Made by a program: the position numbers and the translations under genes. The notes beneath the pieces were generated by a model, which did no database searches, had not been told where the DNA came from, and was given only the letters and a program-made list of their open reading frames with translations. From a virus, in IMG/VR virus record IMGVR_UViG_3300020180_000033, positions 1 to 44,904 of that record: a stretch of DNA of 44,904 bases; one strand, given 5' to 3'. The stretch's first letter is position 1; each line of letters opens with the position of its first letter. This document shows, one piece after another, positions 36,265 to 43,616 of the stretch.

Positions 36265-39200
36265 ATGGCAAACACGCCCCTCACGCCTGTAATGGTCGAC
36301 TCGTTTACGCGACGGGTGGAGATTCGTCGCAAGGCGATCGAAGGGCTGATGCAATCCTTCCCGCTCAAGGCCCGGTCGTACACAGTCGAGTTGTTGAATC
36401 CACGAGTCGAGGCACAGGAGTTCTCGTCCCGAGAACAGAAGGCCGCGATTCTCGAGGGCCGGTCGTTGAACGAGCGCGTCCGCGGCGACCTGATCGTACG
36501 TGACGCGCAAGGCAACATTACGAGCGACGCCAAGGGGTTCACCCTTCTCCACTTGCCGTACTTCACGCCGCGTCACACGTTCATCGTCGACGGCACTGAA
36601 TACAGTGTTTCCAATCAGATCCGCACGAAGCCTGGCGTATACACCCGACGGCGCGGCAACGAGGACCTCGAAGCCTCGTTCAACCTGTCGAAAGGCGGCA
36701 ACTTCCGTGTCCTCATGGAACCAGAGAAGGGGCACCTCTTCGTCCAGCCAACGCACTCGACGACACGGATCCCGTTGTACCCCGTCCTACGTGCGCTCGG
36801 CGTGCCGCACCAGGACATCGCAGGGAACTGGGGCAATGAAGTAGCTACGCTGAATCGCGACGCATTCAAGAACCCCGAAAAGCACGTCGACAAGTTCTAC
36901 GCGAACTTCATCCATCCCGCCCAACAGACGCACACGTCGCTCGATGAGAAGGTCCGTGCGCTTCACGGATATCTCGATACGACCGCGATGGACCCGCACG
37001 TCAACAAGGTCACGCTGGGCCATGGTTACGAAAAGGCGTCACCTCAAGCAATCCTGGCCGCCTCGAAGAAGCTTCTCGACGTCCACCGTGCTGCGGACGA
37101 CACCGACGATCGAGACTCTCTAGCGTTTAAGACGTTTCACTCTGTCGACGACTTCATCAAGGAAAGGCTCGCGCTCGATGCGCGGTCGCAACGGATGAAG
37201 ATGGGCATCAAACTGGAAGCCCACAAGGGAGACATCCGAAAGGCGCTACCGTCTGCGCCATTCACACGAACCATCAATTCGTTCCTGACGGGATCGTCGC
37301 TGTCCGCAGTGCCGACGCAGATCAACCCAATGGAACTTATCGATCACGCGGTTCGAGTCACCTCGCTCGGCGAAGGCGCCATCTCGTCCGAACGCGCGAT
37401 TCCGCTGGAGGCGCGCAATCTGCACGCGACTCACTTTGGGATCATGGATCCGGTAAGAACCCCGGAGAGCTTCAAAGCGGGCATCGACATTCGCGCAGCT
37501 CTGTCTACCCGCCGGGACACGCAAGGCAACCTCTTCTCGACTTTGCGCAACCTCAAGACAGGGCGCACCGAGCACGTCAAGGCCGAGGACATTATGCACT
37601 CGGTCGTGGCGTTCCCTCACGAGGACGTGCGACCAGGCAAGATGGTGGACGCGCTGACTCGAGGTCACGTGCAGCGTGTTCCCGCTTCGCAGGTGACGCA
37701 CCAAGTCGTGCACGTGTCTGACCTCTACGGACCGACGACGAACCTCCTGCCGTTCCTCAACGGCATGCAGGGCAACCGCTCGTTGATGGCATCCAAGCAC
37801 CAGAGCCAGGCGCTGTCCCTGATTCATCGGGAGGCGCCGCTCGTGCAGGTTCAGTCGTGGAAGCCGGGCTCCTCCGTCGAACAGGAGATGAACAAGCTCA
37901 TCGTCCCGACGTCACCGGTGGCAGGGATCGTGTCGCACATCGACGACGACTACATCCACATCACGCCGGACAACCACAAAGCGGCGTCGAGCCCCACTGC
38001 CGTCGTCGTGAAGGGGAACCCACGGTTCATCGAGGGGAACGCAGAAGCCACGCGCTTCTACGATGAGATCAAGAAACATCTTGAATCTGTCGGCTACTCC
38101 GTAACGTTCGACGCGGGAGAGCCCTACACACAACCCGTCAACGCCGACCTTTGGGTTGGACATAGCCGTGGGGCAGACCGTCTTCGTTTCGCGCCCAACA
38201 CAACTCGAACCGTCGTACTGGGGAGCCCTCACCCGGATGCAATCAATCACCCGGACGATTCAGTTAACGCCCATTTGACGAATACGCCTCCGTCTATCGC
38301 TCACTTCACGTTGACGCCAGAAATGAAAAACGCGTTGTCAACGATGCCGAGCAAAGGCGCGTCCGCTCCTTGGGAAGACCCCGGCGACGTCTATTCCGAC
38401 TTCGTCAAGGTCGGCGACAACGGCAACATCAAGCTCCACTACGACCAAAACTTCCCGCTAGCGGCCAAGACGTACCTGCACAACGACATCAAGGTGAAAG
38501 CGGGTGACCGTGTTCGCGTGGGTCAGGTTCTCGCAACGTCCAACTTCTCGAAGGACGACACTCTAGCGCTCGGCACCAACCTGAGCGTTGCGTACATGCC
38601 GTACCGCGGCCTCAACACGAACGACGGCATCGTCGTGTCGCAGGGAGCCGCAAACCGTCTCGTCTCCGAGCACATGTACAAGCATGTCATGATCTTGACC
38701 GGAGGCGTGGAAGCGAAGCGCGAGAAGCACCGCGCGTACTTCGGTAACAAGTACACCGCAAAACAGTACGATAACCTCGACGAGGACGGTGTCGTCCGTC
38801 CCGGGGCGATCGTACAGTCGCACGACCCGCTCATTGTGGCCGTTCGTCCGAATCAAGCCACAGGCAACGCAGTGCTATTGGGCCGCTTGTCCAAGTCGTT
38901 GGTCAAGCCGTTCTCCGAAGAAGTCGAGCTGTGGGACCACGATCGACCAGGCACGGTCATCGACGTGGCCAAGACGGGCGACCGCGTCACAGTCACCGTG
39001 AAGACAGAGGAGCACCTCAACATCGGCGACAAGCTCTCCGGACGCTACGGCAACAAGGGCGTCATCGCGAAGATTGTCCCTGACCACCAGATGATTCAGG
39101 ACGAGAAGGGAAAACCCATCGATCTGCTCTTTACCTCTGCCGGCATCATCTCGCGTATCAACCCGGCACAGGTCATCGAGGCGTCTCTCGGCAAGGTCGC

Positions 39201-41819: not shown

Positions 41820-43616
41820 GTGGCGACTCTCGGCGAACACATGGTTGACGCGATCCTACCCGCGGAGTATCGCGGCCGTGGAACGCTCACGAAGCAGCGC
41901 CTCAACGAGATCCTCGTCGATATCGCGAAGAAACACCCCGACAAATATCCGGACATCGTCACCAAGCTCAAGCGGCTCGGCGACGAATGCGCGACACTTG
42001 AGGGCATTTCCGTAGGGCTCGACGACATCGCGCCGCACTACGAAACACGCGATGCGATCGTTTCGCCGTTCCACGCGCAGTTCAACAAAGCGCAACCGCA
42101 TGAACGGGAGAAGATTCTCCTCGACGCACAGAACGCGGTCCTCGGCCACACCAAGAACAACTCCGGCACGATGGGTGAGATGGTGCGGTCGGGCGGTCGC
42201 GGCAACGCTGCGCAGCTCATGCGCATCATTGGTGCGCCTATCCTCGCGCGAGACGAACGTGATCGTATCGTCCCGTGGTTCATTCCCCGTTCTTACGCCG
42301 AAGGGTTGAAGCCGTCCGACGCGTGGGTCGCCGGCAACGAAGCGCGTATAAACGCGATCAAGTCGAACATCTCCGTCGTCGAACCGGGTGACCTCGCCAA
42401 GATCCTCGTCAACAACATGGGCGACAAGCTCATCTCGATGCCTGACTGCAAGACGTCCAACGGCGTCGCCATGAGCGCACGGGATGCACACGCGGTCGAT
42501 CGCTATCTCGCAAAGCCCGTGAATGGCGTTACAGCCGGCACGTTGCTGACCCCCCAGACGCTTCAGCACCTGGGCGAGGCGATGCTCATCGTTCGATCGC
42601 CTATGACGTGTGAAGCACCGCACGGCATCTGCCAGCGCTGCCAAGGCTTGTCATCGACCGGACACGTACACTCTATCGGCACGAACGTTGGCATGCGTGC
42701 GGCGCAGGCATTGTCCGAACCTCTTACCCAGTTTTCACTCAATGCCAAACACGGCGGGCGTATCACGACCACCGACGACCACGTGAAGCGACCCGAAGGT
42801 ATCAAGGGCGTGCGCCAGGTCCTCGAGGTCCCCGAGTCGTTTCTCCACAAAGCGACACTCGCGGACCACGCGGGAACAGTGGCTCGCATAGAGCCCGCAC
42901 CCCAAGGCGGAAACTACGTCTGGGTCGATCAGACCCGTCACTACGTACCGCCGGACCTGCGCGTCACGGTCACCAACGGCAAGCACGTGGAAGCGGGCGA
43001 TACGCTTTCGAATGGCGTGCCCAAACCTGACGAGATCGTGAAGCACAAAGGGCTCGGAGAGGGGCGGCGGTACCTCGTCGATACGCTTCACGACGTCTAC
43101 AAGAGGTCTGGTGCGGACATCGACCGACGCCATATCGAAACCCTGGCGCGTTCGGTGCTCAATCACGTGTCGATCGAAGACCCAGGGGAAGACGACGCCC
43201 ATGGGTTCATCAAGGGCGATATCGTCAACTACAATCGTTTCTCTGCCGCGTTGGCGTTGCATCAAAAGCAACTGCCTGTCGACGATGCAATCGGCGAAAC
43301 ACTCGCAGCGAATACGCTGCACTTTACGGCGGGAACTCACCTGACAGGTTCCGTGCGCGACACGCTCGTTAAGCACGGGATAAAGACGGTGGCGGTTGCG
43401 CAGAACGGGCCTCGGGCCGTTCCGATCATGCGCGCAGCGTCCCGCACGCCGTTGTTGAATCCAGACTGGATGGCGCGTCTGGGCCACCGATACCTCAAGC
43501 AGTCTCTGCTTGAAGGCGCGTGGCGGGGCGATGTAAGTGATACACACGGACCCCACCCGGTCCCGGCGTACGCTGCGGGAACCGAATTCGGCGAAGGATC
43601 GGAAGGGCACTACTGA
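41820..43616 (+). CDS. rpoC-like: RNA polymerase beta' C-terminal part (split subunit)
   Basis: 598 residues continuing beta' where the fusion protein stops. ATLGEHMVDAILP and SVGLDDI at the start match the region near E. coli residue 615. VRSGGRGNAAQL leads to the bridge helix, which is highly diverged (GNEARINAIKSNIS). A zinc site of four cysteines, C210, C264, C271 and C274, matches the second beta' zinc-binding domain. ALSEPLTQFSLNAKHGG is the trigger loop, keeping the catalytic histidine as H311. It ends near residue 598 after the DPGEDDAHGFIKGD region, shorter than cellular beta'. GTG 41820 aligns best with the family start, although ATG 41841 is an alternative and the ribosome binding site is poor. 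It works with the 36265 fusion and perhaps with the sigma factor at 27178. Confidence 0.93.
   Translation: MATLGEHMVDAILPAEYRGRGTLTKQRLNEILVDIAKKHPDKYPDIVTKLKRLGDECATLEGISVGLDDIAPHYETRDAIVSPFHAQFNKAQPHEREKILLDAQNAVLGHTKNNSGTMGEMVRSGGRGNAAQLMRIIGAPILARDERDRIVPWFIPRSYAEGLKPSDAWVAGNEARINAIKSNISVVEPGDLAKILVNNMGDKLISMPDCKTSNGVAMSARDAHAVDRYLAKPVNGVTAGTLLTPQTLQHLGEAMLIVRSPMTCEAPHGICQRCQGLSSTGHVHSIGTNVGMRAAQALSEPLTQFSLNAKHGGRITTTDDHVKRPEGIKGVRQVLEVPESFLHKATLADHAGTVARIEPAPQGGNYVWVDQTRHYVPPDLRVTVTNGKHVEAGDTLSNGVPKPDEIVKHKGLGEGRRYLVDTLHDVYKRSGADIDRRHIETLARSVLNHVSIEDPGEDDAHGFIKGDIVNYNRFSAALALHQKQLPVDDAIGETLAANTLHFTAGTHLTGSVRDTLVKHGIKTVAVAQNGPRAVPIMRAASRTPLLNPDWMARLGHRYLKQSLLEGAWRGDVSDTHGPHPVPAYAAGTEFGEGSEGHY

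Follow-up and report, generated by a model that had tools for sequence, protein, structure and literature searches.

A bacterial-type phage RNA polymerase with beta fused to the N-terminal part of beta' and a separate beta' C-terminal chain

The 44,904-nucleotide stretch of viral DNA analyzed here (the window; positions 1 to 44,904 of IMG/VR record IMGVR_UViG_3300020180_000033) encodes a multisubunit RNA polymerase in which beta is fused to the N-terminal part of beta' (beta'N) and the remainder of beta' (beta'C) is encoded by a separate gene. This arrangement, proposed in a first-pass annotation made from the sequence alone, is confirmed. Taking all lines of evidence together, we think it probable that the two chains constitute a bacterial-type core without alpha or omega that arose by re-splitting of a fusion, is packaged in the virion, and is directed by a sigma factor. 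Both frames would together supply the entire catalytic core of one two-barrel RNA polymerase. An ancestral phage enzyme would have carried beta and beta' in tandem in a single chain, and this covalent link would plausibly substitute for the assembly platform of alpha and omega; in one lineage beta' would then have been cut once, just past the catalytic barrel, leaving one chain of beta+beta'N and another of beta'C that reassemble to form the active site. Packaged in the virion, the polymerase would be injected with the DNA for early transcription, and the phage sigma-70 factor would direct it to phage promoters. The interpretation given in the first-pass annotation is partly supported, and the analysis adds three elements to it: a probable secondary fission of a full fusion, a sigma factor of the phage's own, and an apparently exchangeable slot in beta.

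Two chains with the parts of one catalytic core

The longer chain (1596 amino acids; 36265 to 41055 on the + strand, as are all window features below) carries Pfam matches in the order Rpb2_2, Rpb2_3, Rpb2_6 (E=3.7e-46), Rpb1_1, and Rpb1_2 (E=7.3e-21). Alignment to Salmonella rpoB and rpoC assigns residues 1 to ~1130 (36265 to 39654) to beta and residues ~1140 to 1596 (39682 to 41052) to beta'. Lysines K923 and K931, in GDKLSGRYGNKG (39025 to 39060), correspond to the catalytic K1065 and K1073 of Salmonella beta (numbered after subtraction of the 38 extra residues of the record's annotated start), and D1506 and D1510 of the metal-binding loop NADYDGD (40774 to 40794) correspond to beta' D460 and D464, placing D1508 on D462. 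The beta motifs and the beta' loop thus lie in a single frame, just as the first-pass annotation had read them. Beta ends at ~1130–1135 and beta' begins at ~1140, leaving practically no linker. An AlphaFold model of residues 731–1596, built from 44 sequences, depicts the junction as ordered strands (mean pLDDT 88), and in a Foldseek search against PDB the model matched beta (Synechocystis, 464 columns) and beta' alike, with E values of ~1e-29 to 1e-30; the beta' matches include cyanobacterial beta'1 chains.

Zinc site 1 of beta' is deleted from this chain, as judged from both the alignment and the cysteine count. The chain contains no cysteine at all, against ~24 expected from the other window proteins (chance ~5e-11), and 29 of 38 insert-free relatives of the fused chain are likewise cysteine-free. 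Most of the related enzymes that are encoded in one piece have four to six cysteines, four of which are presumably those of zinc site 2. Near-absence of cysteine, kept across relatives, may fit a protein stored in the virion.

The second chain (598 amino acids; 41820 to 43616) matches Rpb1_5 (E=3.2e-18) and, weakly, Rpb1_3, and by Pfam and alignment comprises the bridge helix, zinc site 2, the trigger loop, and the C-terminal clamp part. In the Salmonella rpoC alignment, Cys264, Cys271, and Cys274 fall on beta' C888, C895, and C898, with Cys210 as the fourth zinc ligand (site at 42447 to 42641), and H311 falls on the trigger-loop histidine, H936 in E. coli beta' (region at 42729 to 42770). The 1596-residue frame stops at approximately beta' 569 and the 598-residue frame begins at approximately beta' 575, so that the split lies downstream of the catalytic double-psi beta-barrel (DPBB) and upstream of the bridge helix. 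Both the content of the second frame and the position of the split had been predicted correctly, and the motifs and domains of the two chains complement each other exactly.

The two small genes noted earlier in the gap are real open reading frames (ORFs), of 111 amino acids (41085 to 41420) and 130 amino acids (41420 to 41812). The first starts with an N-terminal AYDEGV..AL.RFG motif, and the second with a divergent copy of it. Elsewhere the fission gap holds a LigD-type primase-polymerase plus 3'-phosphoesterase gene (L008, 4499–5980; L014; L017; L024) or, in another relative, a ferritin-like gene. Because gap content varies among relatives, the gap alone does not explain the fission. A short N-terminal motif of approximately the form AYxxGVxxALxxFGxKEA recurs in no fewer than five small proteins encoded near the polymerase (starts at 41085, 41420, 43616, 44164, and 44468, + strand), and small genes near the polymerase of relatives also start with a similar motif; by analogy with the T4 capsid targeting sequence, it is possibly a capsid- or virion-targeting signal. 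A TATAAT hexamer lies at 41073–41078, in the short interval that follows the long polymerase gene, and is one of just two exact copies in the window; a scan of the window found no excess of TATAAT over chance. The beta'C chain exceeds 1200 amino acids in L089 (16420–20259), where the extension ends in a P-loop/kinase-like domain, and in L091 (13978–17703).

In 20 related records (most of them 130–198 kb, completeness not proven), the beta' barrel and the beta'C region were each found in a single ORF per record. With a single polymerase per record, neither chain has another candidate partner. Profile searches of these records for alpha (PF01193) and omega (PF01192), with positive controls, detected neither; the window comes from a fragmentary record. 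Given the absence of alpha and omega, we describe the enzyme as a bacterial-type catalytic core and not as a complete bacterial enzyme, and the relation to alpha/omega-free phage polymerases drawn by the first-pass annotation is supported. The window also encodes a sigma-70-family factor with regions 2 and 4 (27100 to 27972, ORF as listed; Sigma70_r2 E=8.8e-12, Sigma70_r4 E=6.6e-9), the likely partner in promoter recognition, and a sigma-70 factor is present in 13 of the 20 records. Directly upstream of the polymerase is a portal protein gene (34051 to 35823; 29% identity over 572 amino acids to the portal gp204 of Salmonella phage Arash, E=5e-95); a portal gene occupies this position in 84 of the 106 loci with enough sequence.

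Distribution of the layouts, probable order of events, and probable virion role

A tblastn search of named phages recovered the layout of the window in Salmonella phage Arash (gp206 and gp216) and in Vibrio phages D69, D148, and D181. These four share with the window the fusion, the separate beta'C, the portal neighbor, and the sigma factor, and have genomes of ~180–187 kb. They differ from it in sequence (35–37% and 28–30% identity to the two chains), in having no domain inserted in the beta slot described below, and in the content of the gap. In D181 a homing endonuclease gene also interrupts beta, and the near-identical D148 match indicates the same interruption there. The Arash proteins were deposited as 'beta' and 'beta or beta-prime', and the Vibrio proteins as hypothetical proteins. 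No fusion is described for the Arash polymerase in the portions of its record and report that we drew on (OQ632216, PMC10585845). The earlier view that the arrangement is unlike known ones therefore holds in part: public relatives share the fusion, but their records do not describe it.

Two scans of IMG/VR, counted together with the named phages and the window, yielded 107 sequences that span the beta/beta' junction (~90 without near-copies). Sixty have beta and beta'N fused with a separate beta'C, at identities reaching down to ~35%; 34 encode beta and a complete beta' in one ORF of ~2000–2200 amino acids; and in 13 the locus is cut off or beta'C was not found. None of the 107 has beta separate from beta'N. 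Among the named phages of the collection, no one-piece form was found at the sensitivity used. In one-piece relatives such as L031, the positions equivalent to window residue 1594 and second-chain residue 5 are ~8 residues apart. We rejected L106 (IMGVR_UViG_3300000172_000001) as a case of unfused beta and beta'. Every in-frame stop in it is a TGA (8151, 8457, 9021, 10833, and 13926), with no TAA or TAG inside, and one lies at a tryptophan position (NDEY*RDLQLG for NDEFWRAIQLG); L106 evidently reads TGA as an amino acid, tryptophan, making it a recoded phage whose polymerase is still fully fused. The best PHROG matches, 24349 and 25354, agree in length with Firmicutes beta and beta', were taken as cellular-type, and were not used. 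The window contains no tRNA, and no host was assigned. Relatives of the polymerase also occur in assemblies of Desulfovibrio, Planctomycetota (Thermoguttaceae), and Methylococcales, although the binning may be in error; possible host leads are L120 (Desulfovibrio piger strain PG-251-APC-1 contig 71), L121, L123, and L124.

The profile search and phylogeny against cellular and phage sets that the first-pass annotation had suggested recovered beta and beta' domains and placed the phage clade apart from the cellular enzymes. Under a site-heterogeneous model and with bacteria at the root, maximum likelihood recovered all two-piece forms as a single clade (99% bootstrap, 93% SH-aLRT); this tree, which included few outgroups, also showed the one-piece group as monophyletic, though weakly so (85/78). 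The one-piece group was paraphyletic in the first FastTree tree, with the two-piece clade nested inside it. It was paraphyletic again after we added more cellular sequences and L125, a very divergent phage contig with a one-piece ORF of 2318 amino acids and a portal gene upstream; the support for the two-piece clade was still 99, and L125 was basal with full support. Counting events on each tree favors fusion before fission but does not prove it. The simplest history would start from separate cellular beta and beta' and invoke one fusion in a phage ancestor, followed by one fission after the catalytic barrel. Fission of beta' at a comparable site is known in phiKZ-type phages and cyanobacteria (PMC7598289), so the position appears to be repeatedly tolerated. 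That precedent, together with a one-piece monophyly weak enough to leave the direction open by topology alone, could also suit the opposite order, in which the two-piece form is ancestral (derived, for example, from a split like that of cyanobacteria) and re-fusion produced the one-piece enzymes. We regard this order as improbable: it costs one event more than fusion followed by fission, the most divergent phage member is one-piece and basal, and the FastTree topology nests the two-piece clade among one-piece lineages. Practically no weight attaches to an artefact, in which a frameshift, an assembly join, or bacterial contamination mimics the fusion and the split. Some 'phage' records with polymerase matches are indeed bacterial contigs (AFYI01000006; probably OR84xxxx), but two other metagenome contigs are 100% identical to the window across both polymerase genes, the layout recurs in dozens of contigs and in the four named phage genomes, phage head genes adjoin it, and the catalytic residues are all kept. 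Recurrence in independent contigs refutes this reading, and both chance and sequencing error, the latter named earlier as a possible source of the split, are excluded by the identical contigs and the 60 two-piece loci.

The location of the enzyme is addressed by the virion proteomics in the portions of the Arash report used here (PMC10585845): gp206 ranks first with 3516 spectra, gp216 has 1210, the major capsid protein has 1333, and a sigma factor was also detected. Three points weigh against our account of a re-split, virion-packaged, and sigma-directed enzyme. The roots of the trees rest on long branches, and the monophyly of the one-piece group shifts with model and sampling. Some records of the clade (several one-piece, some two-piece) have no Sigma70_r2 match, and the use of sigma may thus not be universal. 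Finally, in the same portions of their report the Arash authors allow that enzymes in the virion preparation are carry-over from infection, and they list many metabolic enzymes there (PMC10585845). The polymerase could then be of the non-virion kind, synthesized in the course of infection to serve middle or late genes, as is one of the two polymerases in well-studied jumbo phages (PMC7598289). We consider this unlikely, if still deserving of attention, because gp206 tops all virion proteins in spectra, most relatives have the polymerase gene adjacent to that of the portal, and with one polymerase per genome both phases could be served by the same enzyme. Packaging in the virion is the reading that we retain.

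An apparently exchangeable slot in beta, and inteins

The beta part of the window carries an inserted domain (residues ~576–709; 37990 to 38391). The slot corresponds to approximately E. coli beta 728–747, where most relatives have only 20–30 residues between the flanking landmarks. At 14 loci it holds, inside the open frame, an inorganic pyrophosphatase-type domain of family PF18823 (assigned by Pfam for some and by similarity for the rest). The motifs YG..P, acidic D-x-G-E-x-x-D (with variations), and acidic-x-K are kept in all 13 distinct copies; we take their catalytic roles from comparison with E. coli pyrophosphatase. The window domain itself gave no Pfam match, PF18823 included, and showed no similarity to the inserts of relatives. 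It has relatives among the proteins of phiKZ-like phages, for example PhiPA3 gp373, and in a larger protein of L202 (1015–3747) a domain of the same type is followed directly by a pyrophosphatase-like domain. Searches of its model (pLDDT 73) against PDB and BFVD returned no confident fold match, and we therefore call it only Rossmann-like; we also weighed whether its GHSRG motif marks an alpha/beta-hydrolase but did not adopt that view. In the nearest relatives of the window (71–73% identity) the slot is empty. Since its contents differ or are missing among relatives, the slot seems to exchange modules.

The sections of Iyer et al. 2017 used here (PMC5512222) describe this pyrophosphatase domain in phage polyvalent proteins that are likely injected, suggest that its removal of pyrophosphate could assist replication or transcription, and do not report it inside a polymerase. 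Tentatively, and with somewhat less than even confidence, we propose that the beta slot carries interchangeable catalytic cargo, the pyrophosphatase either hydrolyzing the pyrophosphate released by the polymerase, which would make transcription locally irreversible, or being delivered into the host on the injected enzyme.

In-frame intein-like insertions of ~330–540 amino acids are present in 20 relatives (L020, L022, L023, L026, L027, L030, L032, L033, L039, L041, L051, L052, L056–L058, L061, L065, L096, L099, and L112). They fall at four conserved positions, one ahead of S402, one ahead of S925 (GDKL|S), one around residue 1384, and one ahead of residue 1511 (DYDGD|T). Six of the insertions tested have LAGLIDADG matches, and two of the six also have intein-splicing matches; the remainder were called inteins by position and end sequences. 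One relative, L032, combines three inteins and the pyrophosphatase in a single frame of 2842 amino acids. The window polymerase has no intein. Further large insertions occur elsewhere in L066 and L083.

Relation to known polymerases and implications

A known counterpart of the split is the phiKZ/AR9 type, which shares the division of beta' after the DPBB and the lack of alpha and omega and of which a virion form exists; in those enzymes, however, beta is also split, there are four to five chains and two polymerases per phage, and no sigma factor is recognizable (PMC7598289). The present enzyme has an undivided beta joined to beta'N, no second polymerase accompanies it in the related records, and the window encodes a sigma-70 factor. 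The parallel with phiKZ drawn in the first-pass annotation thus extends to the site of the beta' split but not to beta or to the number of polymerases, and its view that the fusion with a separate beta'C is distinct from the phiKZ layout is supported. The mReC polymerases of Weinheimer and Aylward 2020 (PMC7481178) are, like the present ones, bacterial-type beta/beta' enzymes of tailed phages in IMG/VR with an NADxDGD motif, separate from cellular enzymes. The window has the features by which mReC was defined (beta and beta' matches, NADxDGD, at least 800 amino acids, tailed phage), with Pfam used in place of COG models, and the window clade and the mReC sequences likely overlap. In the portions of that paper used here, beta and beta' are treated as subunits, and neither a fusion nor a beta' split is mentioned. 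The crAss-like, YonO, and P23-45 polymerases also have both barrels in one polypeptide, as in the one-piece relatives, and crAss-like and one P23-45 enzyme are located in virions (PMC10770324). They cannot be aligned with cellular enzymes beyond the DxDxD region, whereas the window enzyme aligns almost throughout with bacterial beta and beta'.

Cyanobacterial RpoC1/RpoC2 divides beta' at about the same place, and the window model aligns over most of beta'1; there, beta is separate from beta'1, and alpha and omega are present. Cellular beta-beta' fusions exist in Helicobacter and Wolbachia. Such fusions, including those in Omnitrophota, likewise join beta and beta' in one chain, but they are full-length, non-phage, lie in ribosomal-protein operons, and have not been re-split. 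Cellular rpoB-rpoC in one ORF of ~2508–2525 amino acids occurs in the metagenome-assembled genomes L126, L128, and L129 (Omnitrophota and another bacterium), and a truncated example is present in L127 (Ratteibacteria). The genes for ribosomal proteins L7/L12 and L1 lie upstream of these cellular fusions; our literature search found no paper naming Omnitrophota with an rpoB-rpoC fusion. The split site and the type of polymerase are therefore already known. What appears to be undescribed in the searchable open-access literature is the joining of beta to beta'N, how this architecture arose, and the slot, the layout itself being present in deposited genomes.

For annotators, the practical consequence is that phage genes labeled 'beta' may hold half of beta'. 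The puzzle of subunit fusion and splitting becomes an ordered history of one fusion and one fission, favored by event counting, with both states extant. If the inserted pyrophosphatase is active, the relatives that carry it would have the first RNA polymerase known to us whose own beta chain removes pyrophosphate. Covalent linkage of beta and beta' may stand in for assembly on alpha and omega, and an isolate with this arrangement, Salmonella phage Arash, exists.

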